A stretch of 34,156 nt of DNA from Campylobacterales bacterium (GCA_011390245.1 JAABSR010000005.1:1-34156); one strand, 5' to 3'. Shown: positions 1 to 17,395, numbered from the stretch's first letter. Numbers and translations: made by a program. Notes: generated from the sequence alone by a model not told the origin.

Positions 1-714
1 AGTGATGTTCTTTATGAAAATATGTGGACGACTATAACCTCAGGAAAGATGTGGCGAGGCGAAGTGAAAAATCGCACCAAAGATGGAAACTACTACTGGG
101 TTGATGCTATCATAAAACCACTTTTTGATAATGATAACAATATCAAAGGATACTATGCTATAAGGATTGATATCACTGACAAAAAAGAGATTGAGCGGAT
201 AAGTATAACCGATGGATTGACTGATATTTTCAATCGAAGGCACTTTAATGATATTTTTCCAAAAATAATAGAAAGTGCCAAACGAAACGACGAGATAGTC
301 TGCTTTTTGTTGATGGATATTGACCACTTCAAACAGTATAACGATAATTACGGTCATCAGATGGGTGATGATGTGCTCATCAAGTTTGCAAAGTGCTTGA
401 AAGATACTACTCAAAGAGTGGATGATATACCATTTCGCCTTGGTGGAGAGGAGTTTGGGATTGTTTATAAAGCTGATACAAAAGAGAGAGCTTTAGAGTT
501 TGCAAATCAAGTTCTAAAAAATATTGAGCAGATGGAAATAGTTCACGAATATAGTAGTGCAAGTAAATATATCACCGCATCTATGGGCCTTGTGTGTGAG
601 CATGCAAGTAAAATAGGAGATATGGATATAGTCTATAAACTAGCTGATGATATGCTCTATAAGTCAAAAGAGAGCGGAAGAAATAGAGTGAGTACAAATA
701 AGGATATAGTATGA
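1..714 (+). CDS. PAS-GGDEF diguanylate cyclase, 5' end missing
   Basis: The reading frame is open from base 1, so the start lies left of the window; an internal ATG at 22 is not the true start. What remains is the second half of a PAS domain, with the Aer-like run WRGEVKNRTKDG followed by a DIT end motif near residue 60, then a complete GGDEF domain. The active-site loop is GGEEF, and an RVDD inhibitory I-site lies nine residues upstream of it. By family knowledge it makes c-di-GMP from two GTP, with product feedback. Its stop codon overlaps the start of the binding-protein gene (ATGA at 711-714), so the two are translationally coupled and probably serve one pathway. Upstream domains (further PAS, membrane or receiver) cannot be seen. 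Catalytic competence is inferred from the motif only. Confidence 0.93.
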   Translation, partial: SDVLYENMWTTITSGKMWRGEVKNRTKDGNYYWVDAIIKPLFDNDNNIKGYYAIRIDITDKKEIERISITDGLTDIFNRRHFNDIFPKIIESAKRNDEIVCFLLMDIDHFKQYNDNYGHQMGDDVLIKFAKCLKDTTQRVDDIPFRLGGEEFGIVYKADTKERALEFANQVLKNIEQMEIVHEYSSASKYITASMGLVCEHASKIGDMDIVYKLADDMLYKSKESGRNRVSTNKDIV

Positions 715-1613
715 AAATGGTAAAAATTGTTGGTATATTGTTACTTCTTGTGACATTTGGCTTGGCAAAAGAGTACAAGATTGGGTTCGCACAAGATACT
801 TTGGCAAATGATTGGCGAAAAGCACAAGTAGATGAAGCACTCAAAGAGGCTAGTAAATATGATTATTTGGATATCACAATAAAAGATGCCAAAGGTTCTG
901 CTGCAAGTCAGATACTCTACATTGAGCAGTTTATAAAAGATGGCTATGACTATATCATATCAAGTCCTATTGAGCCTACAATCACATCTATGGTTTTAAA
1001 AAAAGCAATAGACAAAGGAATCAAGGTAATACTAATAAGCAGAGGGATTGATAGTGATGATTATACTACTTTTATCGCTCCAGATAACTACAAAATAGGA
1101 GAAGATGCAGCTCACTATCTTCTAAAAAAGATGAACTATAAAGGTACTGTTTTAATGCTTCAAGGAGTGGAGAGAGCTACAACTTCGATGCTTAGAGAAG
1201 AGGGTTTTTTGGATGTAGCAAAAGAGCATAAAGATATAAAAATCATCAAAAAAAGAGGGAATTATCTAAGAAGCGATGCGATAAAAGCACTTGAGGAGAT
1301 ATATAAAGACAAAATAGAGTTTGATGCTATCTACTCTCATAGCGATAGTATGCTAATTGGAGCTAGAGAGGTGATGGAAAAACACAATGATAAAAGGGAT
1401 ATCCCAACTATTGGGATTGACTACATCAAACCTGCAAAAGAGGCGATAATTGATGGAAAACAGCTAGCAAGTTTTACATATCCAACATGTGCAAAAGAGG
1501 GAGTGCAAGCGATAGTCGATCTTATAAATGGGAAAATAGTCCCTAAAAATATCACTATAGATACACAAATAGTAGATAAAACTAATGCCTCAAAAATAGA
1601 CCCTATTTTTTAA
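711..1613 (+). CDS. Periplasmic substrate-binding protein (Peripla_BP_4 / LuxP-TorT type)
   Basis: This 300-residue protein starts with a signal peptide (hydrophobic residues 4-18, likely cleavage after Ala19). It then has the two-lobe periplasmic-binding fold: an early KIGFAQDTLANDW strand and ligand loop, IISSPIEPT near residue 85, and IGIDYIKPAKEAI near 245. The family binds sugars or related small molecules. No ABC permease or ATPase gene is adjacent. Instead it sits between a diguanylate cyclase, which it overlaps by 4 bp, and a membrane GGDEF-EAL protein that starts 9 bp after its stop. That placement suggests a sensory co-receptor like LuxP for LuxQ, TorT for TorS, or NspS for MbaA, not a transport subunit. 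The ligand is unknown. A stand-alone scavenging role cannot be excluded, because transporter genes could lie elsewhere. Confidence 0.85.
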   Translation: MKMVKIVGILLLLVTFGLAKEYKIGFAQDTLANDWRKAQVDEALKEASKYDYLDITIKDAKGSAASQILYIEQFIKDGYDYIISSPIEPTITSMVLKKAIDKGIKVILISRGIDSDDYTTFIAPDNYKIGEDAAHYLLKKMNYKGTVLMLQGVERATTSMLREEGFLDVAKEHKDIKIIKKRGNYLRSDAIKALEEIYKDKIEFDAIYSHSDSMLIGAREVMEKHNDKRDIPTIGIDYIKPAKEAIIDGKQLASFTYPTCAKEGVQAIVDLINGKIVPKNITIDTQIVDKTNASKIDPIF

Positions 1614-1621
1614 ATAATGAT

Positions 1622-4234
1622 ATGAATCTAAAAATAAAAAGCTTTATAACCGTAACTTTTATGACTGTGGTCATATCAGTAGTAATAGTCTATATCACAC
1701 TGAAAAATAGTGATGAAGTTTTACAAAATAATCTCAAAAAAGAGCTTCGTATTGATATACAAAAGATAGATAATCATTTAAGCGATGCAAAAGAGAAACT
1801 TCAAAATATCTCACAAAGTATAGTTTTGAGTGAAAAAGTGATCTCTACTTTAAATCTTATATCAAACTATGAGGATAAAAACAACTATAACGCCTTGATA
1901 TTTGATATTGAAAAGAGAGATTTATTGGATTATTCTGAGCGATATTTTGGCAAAAATGAGTTTTTTGAGATACTTTTTTATGACAAATCAAATGCTTTGA
2001 TAGCCAAAAAGTTATTTCATCCTACTCTAGGTCAAGGTGGATATGTCACTTATGATGATGGGGTTGCCTACCTAAGGAGCAACAAAGAGCTTTTGATGAT
2101 AGATGAGAGTTATAATTTGCAAAAAGAGTGCATCGGAAAAGTGATGATTAGATATGAAGATAGCTACTATAAAATTTGTGAAAATCGCACAGTGATGTTT
2201 GGCGAGGATTTGATAGGACATATTAAGATTATCTACTACTTTGGCAAAGAGGAGCTAAGCTCTTTGGAGAGAAATCTAATCTATCCAATATCTTTGACCA
2301 CACAAGCACCAGAGCAAAAAGCTTTTGATATAACTATTTTAAACAAAGAGCTAGGAGTCTATATCAAGCACGATATTGATTTTAGCTATATAAAACAAAA
2401 ACGCCAAGAGCTTATTGTGACTATCATTTTTGTGGTTATTTTAATGACTGGTTTTATATTTTGGTTCTTTTTTGCTTTTATCAACAAAGAGGTATTAAAC
2501 CCTCTCAAAAAACTACAAATCTCATTGGAATCGATACTTTTAAATAGCTACAAGCCAATTAAGGTAAAAAATAGAGATGAGATAGGGAGGATTTTTGACT
2601 CAAGTAATAAGATTTTTAAAAAGTTTTGGGAGAGTTATTCATCTTTGCAAAGTTACAAAAAAGGTGTTGAGACTTCAAATCTTGTGACCAAAACAGACCT
2701 AAAAGGAGTTATCATCTACGCCAATGATCTTTTTTGTCAAACAAGTGAATATAAAAAAGATGAAGTGATAGGCAAGCCTCATAGCATAGTCAGACATCCA
2801 GATATGGATAAAGAGATTTTTAGAGAGATGTGGGAGACTATAAAAGATGGAAAAACATGGCGAGGAGTGATAAAAAACAAGACAAAAAGCGGTGGATTCT
2901 ATTGGGCCGATGCAGTTATAAGTCCCACTTATGATTTAAATGAACAAATTGAGGGGTATGTCTCTATACGAAGAGATATTACAGAACTTATGCAAAGTAA
3001 AGAAGATCTTGAATTTCGAGCTAATTATGATTTATTGACCAAACTTGGAAGTAGAGATAGGCTACATCTTGATCTAAAAAAGAGCATAAATCCATCTCTA
3101 GCACTGATAAATATCGATAGATTCTCTCAAGTAAATGACTTCTACGGACATGAGTTTGGAGATAAAATATTACAAGAGTTTAGTAAGCTTCTACAATACA
3201 AACTTGATGAATTATTTGCAGATAGATATTCACTTTATAGGTACGGAGGAGATGAATTTGCAGTTTTAATTAAAAAATATGATAGAGAAGAGATACAGAG
3301 TAAATTTTCAAATCTTCTTGATGAAATAGAGCAAAAATCTATAAAAGTAGATGAGAAAGAGTTCAATCTAAATCTAAGCTGTGGCATCTCTTTTGAAGAC
3401 TCTTCTATTGCACTTTTGAGTGCTGATATGGCTATGAAAATCTCCAAAAATGAGCAAAAAACTTTTGTAGTTTATAGTGAAGAAAACACTCTTAATAAAA
3501 AGTATGAAAACAATCTTCTTTGGGCGACAAAGCTAAAAGCCTCAATAGAAGAGGATAGGGTAGTGCCATTTTTTCAACCAATAGTCAACAACTCTACATT
3601 AGCTTATGAAAAATATGAAGCATTAGTGCGAATAATAGAGCCTGATGGGAAGGTGATAAGTCCATTTTTCTTTTTGGATGTTGCCAAGCAGACCAAGAAG
3701 TATCACAAGCTTACAAAGATTATGGTAGAAAAAAGCTTTGCAATGTTTAAAGAGAAGAAAGGATTGGAGTTTTCTATCAATCTTACAGTAGATGATATCT
3801 CCTGTGATCATATGCGAGGCTTTCTATTTGGGCATTTAGATGCCAATCCAGAAATCGCCAAGAGGCTTGTGCTAGAGATTGTAGAATCTGAATCCATAGA
3901 AGATTATGCTCAAATGACTGAATTTATAAGTATAGCCAAATCAAAAGGGTGCAAAGTTGCAATTGATGATTTTGGGAGTGGCTATAGTAATTTTGAGTAT
4001 CTCATCAAGCTCCAAGCTGACTATATCAAAATTGATGGTTCGCTTATCAAAAATATCACTACTCAAAGAGAGTCTTTTGTAGTGGTATCTACTATCGTAA
4101 ACTTTGCAAAAGAGATGGGAATCAAAACCATTGCAGAGTTTATAGAAAATGAAGAGATATTTCAAAAAGCTAAAGAGATAGGGATTGATTATTCTCAAGG
4201 GTACTACTTTAGTCCACCAAAAGATAAAGTTTAA
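1622..4234 (+). CDS. Membrane PAS-GGDEF-EAL c-di-GMP enzyme, probable partner of the upstream binding protein
   Basis: An 870-residue sensor. TM1 is about residues 8-27, a periplasmic domain of about 235 residues follows, TM2 is about 265-288, and a HAMP-like segment follows to about 335. An Aer-type PAS spans about 350-457 (VRHPDMDKEIF, TWRGVIKNKTKSG, RRDIT), with GGDEF at 542-546 and EAL at 666-668. The EAL domain keeps its metal and catalytic residues: Glu666, the Asn of SINLT, DDFG at 782-785, Lys803, Glu839 and Gln859, so phosphodiesterase activity is likely. The GGDEF loop is canonical, but there is no RxxD I-site at the usual position, unlike the cyclase at 1-714. Net output (synthesis or breakdown) cannot be read from sequence. 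The gene is 9 bp from the binding-protein gene. It ends opposite mobA, and I see no clear terminator between them. Confidence 0.93.
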   Translation: MNLKIKSFITVTFMTVVISVVIVYITLKNSDEVLQNNLKKELRIDIQKIDNHLSDAKEKLQNISQSIVLSEKVISTLNLISNYEDKNNYNALIFDIEKRDLLDYSERYFGKNEFFEILFYDKSNALIAKKLFHPTLGQGGYVTYDDGVAYLRSNKELLMIDESYNLQKECIGKVMIRYEDSYYKICENRTVMFGEDLIGHIKIIYYFGKEELSSLERNLIYPISLTTQAPEQKAFDITILNKELGVYIKHDIDFSYIKQKRQELIVTIIFVVILMTGFIFWFFFAFINKEVLNPLKKLQISLESILLNSYKPIKVKNRDEIGRIFDSSNKIFKKFWESYSSLQSYKKGVETSNLVTKTDLKGVIIYANDLFCQTSEYKKDEVIGKPHSIVRHPDMDKEIFREMWETIKDGKTWRGVIKNKTKSGGFYWADAVISPTYDLNEQIEGYVSIRRDITELMQSKEDLEFRANYDLLTKLGSRDRLHLDLKKSINPSLALINIDRFSQVNDFYGHEFGDKILQEFSKLLQYKLDELFADRYSLYRYGGDEFAVLIKKYDREEIQSKFSNLLDEIEQKSIKVDEKEFNLNLSCGISFEDSSIALLSADMAMKISKNEQKTFVVYSEENTLNKKYENNLLWATKLKASIEEDRVVPFFQPIVNNSTLAYEKYEALVRIIEPDGKVISPFFFLDVAKQTKKYHKLTKIMVEKSFAMFKEKKGLEFSINLTVDDISCDHMRGFLFGHLDANPEIAKRLVLEIVESESIEDYAQMTEFISIAKSKGCKVAIDDFGSGYSNFEYLIKLQADYIKIDGSLIKNITTQRESFVVVSTIVNFAKEMGIKTIAEFIENEEIFQKAKEIGIDYSQGYYFSPPKDKV

Positions 4235-9641: not shown

Positions 9642-10007
9642 TTAGTTTGTCAATACAGAGTAGATTTTCTGCTCCAGGGCTGTTAAAGATTCAAAAGGTT
9701 TCATGATGTAGTTATCAGCACCAATTTTGTGACTTTTTAGCACTCTATCAAGTGTTGAGTATGCTGTCATCATCACAACCTTGACTTCGGGTTTTTTCTC
9801 TTTTATCTGATCTAAAACCTCTATACCATCCATCTTTGGCATCATGATATCAAGTAGTACTAGATCCACACTATTACCCAAAATCGCATTTAACCCTACA
9901 ACTGGATCACTATATGTATTTATTTTATATTTTCCAGATTTACCCAAATACTTCTCAAGCATTGAGATTATCTGTACCTCATCATCAATTATCGCTATAT
10001 TATACAT
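9642..10007 (-). CDS. CheY-like single-domain response regulator
   Basis: A 121-residue stand-alone receiver. It has the acidic pair Asp8/Asp9, phospho-acceptor Asp53 in LLDIMMPKMDG, Thr81 in MTAY and Lys103 in MKPF, so it should be phosphorylatable. There is no output domain; it must act by protein contact. It starts 13 bp after the stop of the soluble chemoreceptor gene, with GGGGAT as the ribosome site, suggesting it works with that receptor or its CheA. The sequence around the MM-PKMDG loop looks like receivers that partner sensor kinases as much as like flagellar CheY. I therefore do not call it cheY. It is followed after 4 bp by bioF. Confidence 0.9.
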   Translation of the reverse strand: MYNIAIIDDEVQIISMLEKYLGKSGKYKINTYSDPVVGLNAILGNSVDLVLLDIMMPKMDGIEVLDQIKEKKPEVKVVMMTAYSTLDRVLKSHKIGADNYIMKPFESLTALEQKIYSVLTN

Positions 10008-10020
10008 TCATCTATCCCCA

Positions 10021-11352
10021 TCACTCTTTTTGGTTTTTTTCTATAAATAGTCTATTTGCAGCCTCATTCATAAGCTCATTTACTCTCTCTTCTAACATCT
10101 GATCCATGTATTTGAAGACATCTTTACTTGCCTCTTCTACTTTTAAAACCTTACTCTCTATAAGCTCTTTTGAACATGCTATATCATTACCACCACACTC
10201 TTTTGCAAGTACATTTGCTTCATTGTGCACTATAGAGTGCGGAAGGTCTAGCTTTTTGTAGCCTTGAGTATGTCCAAAGTGCTCTTTCCCAACACCTTCG
10301 TGATACCACTTTCCTAGTCTGCATTTTGTATGTTCTGTAGCTTTAAAATCATTCTCCTCACCAAAAATTAGTTGGTATAGATTGTTTTTATAGATCACAT
10401 GGTCGATTTTGGCTAGATTTACAAAAACCATATCGCTTATACTCTCCACTTTAAACATAGCCCTGCTTGAGTTCTTTTGGAAGGTCTCAACAGTTGAGTA
10501 AAGATTCTCTATATTATCTCTAGTATTTGTTACAATAGAGTTAGTCTCTTCAGTGGAGTTCTGTATATCATCTGTCTCTTGTTGCATTGATTTTACAACA
10601 ATTGCTATCTCTTTTGTAGCTTTTTGTGTTCGTTCAGCCAATTTTCTAACCTCATCTGCAACAACTGCAAAGCCTCTACCATGCTCTCCAGCACGAGCTG
10701 CTTCTATGGCTGCATTTAATGCAAGTAGATTTGTCTGTTCTGCTATATCTTCTATAAGAGAAATCACATTTGTTATCTCACTACTTCTCTCTGCTAGGGT
10801 TCGAGTTATAGAGACTGCATTGCTCATGTGTTCATATAGCGTTCCAAAGTCCTCATTTGCCTTTTGGATTATCTCTAGGCCTTTTGTTGATTCCTCTGCA
10901 GTGCTTCTTGATTCTGCTGTCATATCTTTTAGCTCTACTAAGAATCTATCAAAAAGCTTTTGGATGTCATATAGTGAGGTGGTTATAGTTTTATGGTGCA
11001 TATTAGTTATGCTATTTTCACCTCTTGCACTTCTAATATCACTCTTTGAGAGTGCATAAAGTTTAGTTCCATCATCCGTACTTTTCTCTAAAACAGTCGC
11101 TTCACACCCTTTAAAGTTGATAGTACCATTATGACTAGCTAGTTCACTTTTTAGGGCATCTGCATCACCTATCTCATTTTCTACTCTAGAGTTTTTAAAG
11201 ACCACTTCACCATTTTTGATAGCAATAAGTCCTTCACTCATGGAGAATCTTGCAACCTCTTTATAAAAGGAGAGCTCTTTTTTTAGATTATCAATCTCTT
11301 CTTGATATTTTTTGCTCTCTTGGGTAAAATCACTCTGTTTTGAAAAAAACAT
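10021..11352 (-). CDS. Soluble methyl-accepting chemotaxis protein with C-terminal CZB zinc domain (TlpD-like)
   Basis: 443 residues with no membrane segment. An N-terminal coiled coil (about 10-32) leads into a small PAS-like or uncharacterised sensor region (about 33-105). The MCP signalling hairpin follows, with its tip in [20 protein letters not shown] around residues 204-223. A C-terminal CZB domain has candidate zinc ligands His318, Cys344, His372 and His376. Architecture and length match Helicobacter pylori TlpD (about 433 residues), a cytoplasmic receptor for oxidative and energy stress whose CZB cysteine reacts with HOCl; a similar role is inferred here. The CheY-like gene follows after 13 bp. 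A possible sigma-28 promoter and an 18-bp palindrome lie upstream. The ATG is preceded by AGGAG. Confidence 0.92.
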
Positions 11353-14921: not shown

Positions 14922-16331
14922 CTAAAGAGGGTTGGTATCTATTCTTATAATAAAAAGAGCACCATCTTCTAAATTTTTTGCCTCTATGTGCCCATTTAGC
15001 CTATAGTCTATACTGTTTTTTATCATATAGAGACCTAGTCCTTTATTTTTGCTTTTAAATTTTGAAGTGGTGTATGGATCAAAAATAGAAGGCAGTATAT
15101 TTTTATCAATTCCTCCAGCATTGTCCTCAATCTCTATAATAGCATCATCTCCATCTCTTGTCGCTCTTATCTCAACTTTTGCCCCATCTTTCCCTCTCTC
15201 TTCGCAGATATCTTTGACATTTGTAAGCATCCCTACAAATATCTCTATCAAAATAGATGCCTCACCGCGTATTGCCAAATCTCTATTTATATGCTCTATA
15301 ACTTCTATATTGCTATCTTGGAGACTTTGACCTACAAAATTCAAGGCTCCTACTAGAGCACTATGCAGGGTAAACTCCTCTATTTTTTGTGATTGCCTAT
15401 AATATTTTGTAAATTTTGAGATAATTGATGATAGATATTGCACCTCATCTTGAATAATATTACATTTTTGCGAGAACTCATCTTTGTCCATCTCATCTTC
15501 CGCTACCATCTCATCCAAAGAGTGAGTATTTAGAGCTATGATATTTAGTGGTTGTCTCCACTGGTGGGCGATATTCAAAAGTAGCTCTCCTAGTGCGTTT
15601 TTTCTATTTTGTTCATAGATTATCTCATCTTTTTGTTTTATAATATCTACCTCTTTTTTTATCTTTATTTCTAGGTTTTTGTTTGTCTCTTCAAGCTCTT
15701 TGGTTTTTTCTTGTAGTTTTAGTGCTATATTTTTAATTGGCACTCCATAGTAATGCGATAACCTATTTACAACAAAAAAGGAGAATAGAAGAAGTATGGC
15801 AATAGTTAGTGCCATATAGATAGTCATATTGGATAAAAGTTCCTCTTTTGAGGATAGATCCATGGTCATAGATAGGATATTTTCATCACTATCTAGATAA
15901 CCAGTTTTTAATCTCTTCTCTATTGTGATTAGATTCTTCTCACTATTTCTGATGGAGAAAGAATCTAGGGTGATATTTTCAATATTTGAAACATCTTCTA
16001 GATGACCATTTTTTTCTGGATTTGTATGAGCTACTATCTTGCCACTTGTATCAAAAAAGGATATTGAGACTATCTTTTCATTGGATTTTTTTGTGTCCTC
16101 CAAGTAGAGTCTTGTTTGATAGATGCCAGAGTAGTTTATTATTTTTATGGAGTTTGTCAAATCACTTGCTAGGGCTAAAGCAAATTCTGTCTTTTCAGTT
16201 TTGGATATGTGAGAGAACATTAATGCACTAATAGCAAAAATAAGAATCATCAAAAAAAGAATGATTCCACCAAAGCTAATGGCTAGTTTATTATCAATCC
16301 TTTTGAAATCTAACTCAATATTATTTTTCAT
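14922..16331 (-). CDS. Membrane sensor histidine kinase paired with a binding protein
   Basis: 469 residues: TM1 about 17-40, a periplasmic domain of about 130 residues, TM2 about 170-190, and a long coiled coil about 205-245. The dimerisation domain has His256 in NIAHQWRQPLN. The ATP domain follows, with the N-box MLTNVKDI, DNAGGI, FDPYTTSK and KGLGLYM. It should autophosphorylate; no response regulator lies beside it, so the partner is elsewhere or among the orphan receivers in this window. It begins 8 bp after the periplasmic binding-protein gene, and its periplasmic domain is a plausible docking site for the loaded binding protein, as with LuxPQ or TorTS. It converges with der, with the structured segment in between. 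Confidence 0.93.
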   Translation of the reverse strand: MKNNIELDFKRIDNKLAISFGGIILFLMILIFAISALMFSHISKTEKTEFALALASDLTNSIKIINYSGIYQTRLYLEDTKKSNEKIVSISFFDTSGKIVAHTNPEKNGHLEDVSNIENITLDSFSIRNSEKNLITIEKRLKTGYLDSDENILSMTMDLSSKEELLSNMTIYMALTIAILLLFSFFVVNRLSHYYGVPIKNIALKLQEKTKELEETNKNLEIKIKKEVDIIKQKDEIIYEQNRKNALGELLLNIAHQWRQPLNIIALNTHSLDEMVAEDEMDKDEFSQKCNIIQDEVQYLSSIISKFTKYYRQSQKIEEFTLHSALVGALNFVGQSLQDSNIEVIEHINRDLAIRGEASILIEIFVGMLTNVKDICEERGKDGAKVEIRATRDGDDAIIEIEDNAGGIDKNILPSIFDPYTTSKFKSKNKGLGLYMIKNSIDYRLNGHIEAKNLEDGALFIIRIDTNPL

Positions 16332-16339
16332 CAGCGTAC

Positions 16340-17395
16340 TTATCTATACTCATATTTGTAGCTATTATCCCACTCTTTTGATTTTTTAGATTCCCAACTC
16401 TTTTCAAACTTTTGAGGTATTGGACCTCTCCAGCCTGGATAGAGAGGCAAAGTCTCTTTTGTGATTGGAAAAACTGGCAAAAGTATTTTTGAAGGAATCC
16501 TCTCACCCTCTAGTAGTCTATACATCTGCAAAATAGCCTCTTCTCCTAGTGGTGCACAAAATTGTGCTGTATCTATAACTGTCAATCTATCGTTTTTTAT
16601 ATTCTCTATGGATTGTGGATCTCCATCTATTGAGGCAAAAACTATCTCATCTCTTTTGGCTTCAAATAGAGCTTTTACAACCTCTAAACTCCCACCATCA
16701 TTATTTGCAAATATTACATCTATAGAATCTTTTTGAGGAAAATCATTTAATATATTTTTTGCAGCTATTTTTGCACCCTTTGGCTCTACAGATATGTATG
16801 TTTTGAGAATTGTATATTTTTGATTGTTGTCTTCAAGAGCAGTTATGAAGCCATCAACTCTTTTTATAGCGTTTTGTTGATATGGGTAATCTAGTATCAC
16901 TATTTTTAGATTTTTGCTATTTTCAAACATAGATGCTATATATTCACCATCATAATATCCAAGCATAAAATTATCAGACACTATGTATGAGGCGATCTCA
17001 CCTTTTCCCATAATGTATCCATCGTATGTAATAACAGGGATATTTTTTCTATTTGCTTCAAGCAAAGAATTCTTAAGAGCTGCACTATCCATGGGTTGGA
17101 CTATTAGGGCATCGACACCTTCTTTGATAAAGTTATCCATAATGCTTACTTGATTTTTGATCCCCTCTTCGCCATCTCCACCATATTGCTCTATGAGATT
17201 TATTCCTCTTTTGTTTTTTGCCTGCGCCTCTTTATCTATCTCTATAGCTTTTTGGTATAAACCATCTCTCATAAGTAGTTGGCACTCTATTGTTTTACTC
17301 CAATAGACTACTCCTATATCATATTTTGAGTTTCCATCTCCAAATGAGTTGAGAGCAGTAAAGATTAGAAGAGTGGCTAAGAACTTAATCAACAA
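16340..17395 (-). CDS. Periplasmic substrate-binding protein (Peripla_BP_4, TorT-like)
   Basis: About 351 residues. The start is a TTG: two consecutive TTG codons (17395-17390) follow GAGGGG, and either may be used. An N-terminal signal peptide (about residues 3-18) precedes the two-lobe binding fold: YDIGVVYWSKT, ALIVQPMDSAAL near 97, IPVITYDGY, DVIFANNDGG near 225 and VFASIDGDPQSI near 250. Family members bind sugars or other small molecules. No ABC transporter genes are adjacent and the next gene is a histidine kinase 8 bp downstream, so a sensory role is inferred. The C-terminal YPGWRGPIP segment is reminiscent of TorT, though the ligand need not be TMAO. A minus-strand TATAAT (17433-17428) sits about 33 bp before the start. 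Confidence 0.85.
   Translation of the reverse strand: MLIKFLATLLIFTALNSFGDGNSKYDIGVVYWSKTIECQLLMRDGLYQKAIEIDKEAQAKNKRGINLIEQYGGDGEEGIKNQVSIMDNFIKEGVDALIVQPMDSAALKNSLLEANRKNIPVITYDGYIMGKGEIASYIVSDNFMLGYYDGEYIASMFENSKNLKIVILDYPYQQNAIKRVDGFITALEDNNQKYTILKTYISVEPKGAKIAAKNILNDFPQKDSIDVIFANNDGGSLEVVKALFEAKRDEIVFASIDGDPQSIENIKNDRLTVIDTAQFCAPLGEEAILQMYRLLEGERIPSKILLPVFPITKETLPLYPGWRGPIPQKFEKSWESKKSKEWDNSYKYEYR

Follow-up and report, generated by a model that had tools for sequence, protein, structure and literature searches.

TorT of Escherichia coli, a relative of the binding protein described below, acts from the periplasm on the sensor kinase TorS, and NspS of Vibrio cholerae is a polyamine binder of the PotD type. 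Control of receptors by binding proteins, including receptors that are c-di-GMP enzymes, is an established principle, and the double role of solute-binding proteins in transport and signalling is largely unexplored (PMC9602780). In the norspermidine system of V. cholerae, the binding protein NspS controls the bifunctional GGDEF-EAL receptor MbaA, and its occupancy sets the direction in which the enzyme works (PMC8967002). In Vibrio parahaemolyticus, a single operon encodes the periplasmic binding protein ScrB and the GGDEF-EAL enzyme ScrC, which alternates between a cyclase and a phosphodiesterase mode; an aminotransferase encoded with them, ScrA, produces the signal (PMC11315295). LuxP of Vibrio, a ribose-family binding protein, acts on the tandem-PDC membrane receptor LuxQ, and the sensor of TorS is all-helical (PMC8534201). 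BT1754 of Bacteroides is a hybrid two-component fructose sensor (PDB structure: 2x7x; PMC3404733). According to a 2022 census, SBP_bac_3 is the only family of the periplasmic-binding-protein clan that has been studied in c-di-GMP networks (PMC8846402).

The window analysed here is a stretch of 34,156 nucleotides from a Campylobacterales bacterium, the entire contig C126 of a draft genome that is 83% complete (1.68 Mb in 186 contigs). Three co-directional genes lie at its start (Table 1), and Pfam matches of all three agree with the original prediction that a binding-protein gene stands between a PAS-GGDEF gene and a gene for a membrane PAS-GGDEF-EAL protein. The predicted 4-bp overlap of the first two genes is present (ATGA at 711-714); the gap between the second and the third, given as 9 bp, is actually 8 bp (1614-1621). 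About 19 N-terminal residues of the binding protein, ending in TFGLA and followed by KE, were judged by eye to be the signal peptide that had been proposed, and hydropathy places the transmembrane (TM) segments of the receptor at residues 9-27 and 264-282, with about 236 periplasmic residues between them, close to the expected 235. In the receptor, Pfam finds a PAS domain followed by GGDEF (E 9.5e-21) and EAL (E 1.7e-61) domains, and by reading all of their motifs (RYGGDEF; EAL, DDFGSG, QGYY) are intact, so that both enzyme activities, synthesis by GGDEF and breakdown by EAL, are plausible.

Table 1. Features of the three-gene locus at the start of the window
Feature	Coordinates	Strand	Evidence
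PAS-GGDEF diguanylate cyclase, 3' part (237 aa)	1..714	+	Pfam GGDEF E 5.7e-42; 74% identity to L060_3 residues 202-435
Peripla_BP_4 ribose/fructose-type periplasmic binding protein, 300 aa	711..1613	+	Pfam E 2.2e-46; AF2 pLDDT 93.6; best PDB fold match 2x7x, TM 0.86
Binding-protein subfamily signature FAQDTxxND[WF]RxxQ, residues 26-39	786..827	+	Alignment of family members
Membrane receptor, 870 aa: TM1, periplasmic sensor, TM2, PAS, GGDEF, EAL	1622..4234	+	Pfam; hydropathy; catalytic motifs by reading
Receptor periplasmic sensor domain (predicted), residues ~28-263	1703..2410	+	AF2 pLDDT 89.3; Foldseek
Receptor signature LIxNYxDxxNYxxxLxDxEKxxL, residues 79-102	1856..1927	+	Conservation in 92 sensors
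Receptor cytoplasmic PAS domain	2687..2986	+	Pfam PAS_3/PAS_9
Receptor GGDEF domain, RYGGDEF motif	3020..3457	+	Pfam; motif by reading
Receptor EAL phosphodiesterase domain, EAL + DDFGSG + QGYY motifs	3530..4219	+	Pfam; motifs by reading

From sequence comparison and predicted structures, we think it likely, with a probability of roughly 0.8, that the binding protein is dedicated to signalling and is no transporter subunit, and that together with the receptor it controls c-di-GMP. In the proposed mechanism, a small ligand would close the binding protein in the periplasm, and one of its conformers, either the loaded or the empty one, would dock on the tandem-PDC sensor at its membrane-distal part. 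The change would be relayed via the second TM helix and then the PAS domain, and the balance between GGDEF and EAL activity would shift, moving the level of c-di-GMP either up or down. The likeness to NspS-MbaA, which had been pointed out originally, holds in that a binding-protein gene lies beside the gene of a two-TM GGDEF-EAL receptor. The families differ, as was also foreseen: the window protein matches Peripla_BP_4 and Peripla_BP_1 only, and has a ribose/fructose-type pocket, while the sensor of its partner falls in no Pfam family. In ScrB-ScrC, too, one operon joins a GGDEF-EAL enzyme to a periplasmic binding protein; at the window locus, however, there is no gene for a ScrA-type aminotransferase.

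GTDB sampling at the family level gave the genome itself alone, and the class level was used (397 genomes), with two search profiles, one for the binding protein and one for the N-terminal part of the receptor. The two profiles match the identical 26 of the 397 genomes; this count leaves out an RbsB-like match in G212, beside RbsA-like and ribokinase-like genes, and a partial sensor match in G272. The chance of such co-occurrence under independent draws, about 2.5e-41, is a measure of association and no clean probability, as the sensor profile derives partly from these loci and the genomes are related. Scanning 84,980 named genomes yielded 187 relatives, and the best 80 of the 187, chosen by binding-protein similarity, were analysed; these come from Campylobacterota, Alpha-, Beta- and Gammaproteobacteria, Thermodesulfobacteriota including the cable bacteria Electrothrix, and one Nitrospirota. 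A homologous sensor is found within 3.5 kb in 92 of 99 non-redundant binding-protein loci from four phyla (91 on the same strand), a proportion that applies to this binding-protein subfamily only, the genomes having been picked by binding-protein similarity. The gaps between the two genes are mostly -4 to +60 bp. Over-long binding-protein ORFs at L079, L085 and L133 are artefacts of ORF calling in GC-rich DNA, and a six-frame HMM search, made where GC-rich loci needed it, recovered the ordinary arrangement.

The conserved adjacency expected in relatives is thus very strong. It was found in Campylobacterota, for which a survey had been proposed, but the module is not specific to that phylum. 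Sequence comparison shows that the binding protein and the periplasmic domain of the receptor make up one conserved two-gene unit, with an exchangeable output module. Among the seven loci without an adjacent receptor, one is at a contig end and three form a group of orphan paralogues. The latter (L036 9007-9900, L091 3106-3999 and L102 2857-3750) have conserved, unrelated flanks and no receptor beside them. Two genomes, G394 and G134, the second of which holds L036, have additional receptors that lack a neighbouring binding protein. At L037, the gene of a binding protein of NMT1/THI5 type with a lipoprotein-like start (9842-10801) separates the binding-protein gene from that of its GGDEF-EAL receptor.

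Pfam searches of the sensor gave no family for the window protein and dCache_1 in only 2 of 64 members, and LuxQ-periplasm models do not match the sensors of the window member and its relatives (n=64). The AF2 model of the sensor is confident (Table 1); Foldseek relates it to tandem-PDC (dCACHE) domains and, lower down, to LuxQ bound to LuxP (1zhh_B), with weak scores (best E 1.4e-3, TM 0.36-0.42), and we predict a tandem-PDC fold, dCACHE/LuxQ-like. Conservation in the sensor is highest in a stretch with the majority form LIxNYQDxxNYxxxLxDEEKKxIA, and Y83, Y89, D95, E97 and K98 are kept in 93-99% of 92 sensors. In the model, this signature forms two helices before the first PDC strand; from its conservation only, it is a candidate docking surface for the binding protein.

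Many dCACHE domains bind ligands directly. As the predicted sensor fold is of this ligand-binding type, the receptor might itself bind the ligand, with the binding protein only helping or competing, for instance by buffering the ligand. We regard this as improbable, given the scarcity of dCACHE matches among the sensors, none of them in the window, and the location of the conserved motif, which lies at no obvious dCACHE pocket; moreover, the strict co-occurrence of sensor and binding protein implies that the former depends on the latter.

The best PDB match of the AF2 model of the binding protein is the fructose-binding sensor domain of BT1754 (31% identity; Table 1), followed by ribose and galactofuranose binders, with RbsB and YtfQ among the matches, and a single-sequence search likewise gives BT1754 as the closest solved relative. 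BT1754 is also a sugar sensor, but there binding domain and receptor form a single protein, whereas the window encodes a free binding protein and a separate receptor. Within the subfamily signature, Q28, D29, D34, R36 and Q39 are conserved in 91 of 92 family members and N33 in 90 of 92; N33, W35 and R36 are ligand-pocket positions. R111, R162 and D237 are invariant (n=92). In the alignment to E. coli RbsB, the equivalent pocket residues are kept, namely N33, the aromatic residue at 35, R111, R162, D237 and, in most members, an aromatic residue at 185, all at positions that we take to be ribose contacts in RbsB. The position of RbsB D89 is occupied by D, T or S, and R36 is also found in BT1754. 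The constancy of this near-invariant pocket over four phyla suggests one ligand or, as is probable, one ligand class. Plasmid records hold only distant relatives of the binding protein, 30-34% identical.

A carbohydrate is the probable ligand, and a furanose-type monosaccharide similar to fructose or ribose is the most likely candidate. In addition to the closeness in sequence and fold to the BT1754 fructose sensor and to ribose binders, and to the conserved residues R111, R162, D237, N33 and R36, a carbohydrate is made likely by the LamB sugar porin, which is encoded upstream and co-occurs with the module. In the Pfam enrichment of neighbours, LamB is the commonest family directly upstream of the binding protein, and nothing else coherent emerged there. 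It lies directly upstream on the same strand at eight distinct loci, of Campylobacterota and of Gallionella-type bacteria, and is divergent at one more. Five of the 397 class genomes have LamB, all of them among the 26 module carriers (chance about 8e-7 if independent); in one of the five, at L170, LamB precedes a second type of Peripla_BP_4 protein that has its own PAS-GGDEF-EAL receptor. LamB was not found in the window's own genome (83% complete).

Two further arrangements were seen at LamB-bearing loci. Genes of glycogen branching enzyme or glycogen synthase type (L106 532-2466 and L119 2354-3808, from two phyla) lie a few kb upstream of the genes for LamB, binding protein and receptor. 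The Gallionella-type loci L087 and L134 each encode two consecutive binding proteins, one preceding a PAS-GGDEF protein whose sensor is different, the other preceding a LamB-linked GGDEF-EAL receptor.

A different ligand would be expected of a LuxP-like autoinducer-2 (AI-2) receptor, a reading suggested by the fact that LuxP and LsrB belong to the same Pfam family as the binding protein (PMC12268683) and by the analogy of the sensor fold to that of LuxQ. LuxS is present in 26 of the 26 class genomes with the module, but its base rate in class genomes is 85%, and only 4 of 43 other module carriers have it (it is missing in 39), even though the pocket residues are identical. In addition, the LsrB model scores 28 bits on the binding protein against a cut-off of 384, and there is no LuxP-named chain among its 60 best PDB sequence matches. 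An AI-2 receptor is therefore very unlikely.

LuxP-LuxQ nevertheless resembles the present pair in its tandem-PDC partner sensor, LuxQ being among the weak fold matches. It differs probably in ligand (AI-2 for LuxP-LuxQ) and certainly in output, which is a histidine kinase in LuxQ, as it is in 28 relatives of the window receptor, and GGDEF-EAL in the window; furthermore, the binding protein is not of LuxP type, and the LuxQ-periplasm models do not match its partner. TorT-TorS is more remote: TorT models score 26-28 bits on the window protein, far below their cut-offs of 310 and 200, and the all-helical sensor of TorS contrasts with the predicted tandem-PDC fold. By the features tested, the pair would work like LuxPQ or NspS-MbaA, and is a member of neither, nor of TorTS.

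ABC transport is the usual role of Peripla_BP_4 proteins, and the fold is common to the window protein and to the binding proteins of CUT2 sugar ABC systems, for which, however, a BPD_transp_2 permease is expected. As originally noted, neither a permease nor an ATPase is encoded next to the binding protein by Pfam search of the window. BPD_transp_2 permeases are missing from the draft genome (83% complete) and from 21 of 25 relatives carrying the module, nearly all of which are rated 97-100% complete; those of the other four relatives are mostly adjacent pairs away from the module locus, which we read, by their spacing, as LivH/LivM-type. It is thus highly improbable that the binding protein serves, or once served, a transporter whose permease lies elsewhere, and that adjacency to the receptor reflects co-regulation only. 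A permease could be missing from a genome that is 83% complete, but hardly from so many nearly complete relatives, and the presence of one homologous receptor domain beside 92 of the 99 binding-protein genes is unlike a transporter context. The search for an orphan permease, which gave none in the draft genome and in 21 of the 25 relatives, came out in favour of the original proposal, and the permease and adjacency checks together support a transporter-free module of binding protein and GGDEF-EAL receptor.

The upstream cyclase is cut off at position 1, the end of the contig; its visible part is PAS-GGDEF, with the GGDEF motif, RLGGEEF, intact by reading. In the closest relative, L060, the same place is taken, with the same 4-bp overlap, by a response regulator-PAS-GGDEF protein of 437 aa (Response_reg E 4e-29; no TM segments), with a hybrid kinase ahead, and at L061 by a response regulator-GGDEF protein. 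Because its counterpart in L060 is a response regulator behind a hybrid kinase, the upstream cyclase is most likely a phosphorylation-controlled operon neighbour, and no target of the periplasmic protein. The original idea that cyclase and dual enzyme form a single ligand-dependent switch, with the binding protein acting on the upstream enzyme or on both, draws on the gene overlap here and in L060, but the cyclase is not conserved, being absent beside most homologous pairs, and the L060 response regulator, having no TM segment, is beyond the reach of a periplasmic protein, which makes this the least probable explanation of all.

The output of the receptor at the 92 paired loci is GGDEF-EAL in 60, a histidine kinase in 28, and unseen in 4, usually where the contig ends. 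The tree of the binding proteins is not congruent with the phyla, and the output type changes on it at least 6 times, counting by starred branches, or 10 times by parsimony. Distances between binding proteins and between sensors correlate with r 0.86 (highest value among 2000 permutations, 0.10), a coefficient that is inflated by shared ancestry, which the permutation test leaves in. The nearest neighbour of 12 sensors is a sensor with the other output. The pattern fits a fixed ligand-binding pair with an exchanged output module, as far as alignments and trees can tell. A receptor of the same family at L135 (2862-5396) has HAMP, PAS and Hpt domains, without a kinase or a c-di-GMP domain, and is followed by a separate receiver-kinase gene.

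What is new with respect to the known principle is, on the present comparison, the protein families, the phylum spread, the exchange of outputs and the porin link; a literature search, mostly without subscription journals, found no description of this pair of binding protein and receptor. With moderate confidence, we read the observations jointly as a transporter-free family of free binding proteins with a near-invariant pocket, and so probably one ligand class, whose partner is a receptor sensor that has no Pfam family; the pair is present in four phyla, its output has been rewired 6-10 times between turnover of c-di-GMP and signalling by a histidine kinase, and in some lineages it is linked to LamB. 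As far as searched, control of c-di-GMP by a ribose-family binding protein would be without known precedent. Carriers of the module include sulphur- and iron-oxidising, magnetotactic and cable bacteria, and the recurrence of the pair in four phyla suggests widespread sensing of a small, probably sugar-like molecule, so far unstudied. Few inputs of c-di-GMP enzymes are known. As the family offers two defined partner proteins with a conserved pocket and a receptor signature motif, natural controls in the form of histidine-kinase versions of the receptor, and a porin that hints at the ligand, what this widespread environmental sensor binds becomes directly testable.

The genome contains two other Peripla_BP_4 proteins. 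One is encoded in the window on the minus strand (16340-17395), with a gap of 8 bp to the histidine kinase that follows it (14922-16331), likewise with no permease there. The other, on contig C107 (L059 8431-13419), lies between a receiver-domain protein, similar to hybrid kinases, and a histidine kinase; its relative at L170, 65% identical, has LamB before it and a PAS-GGDEF-EAL-CZB protein after it.
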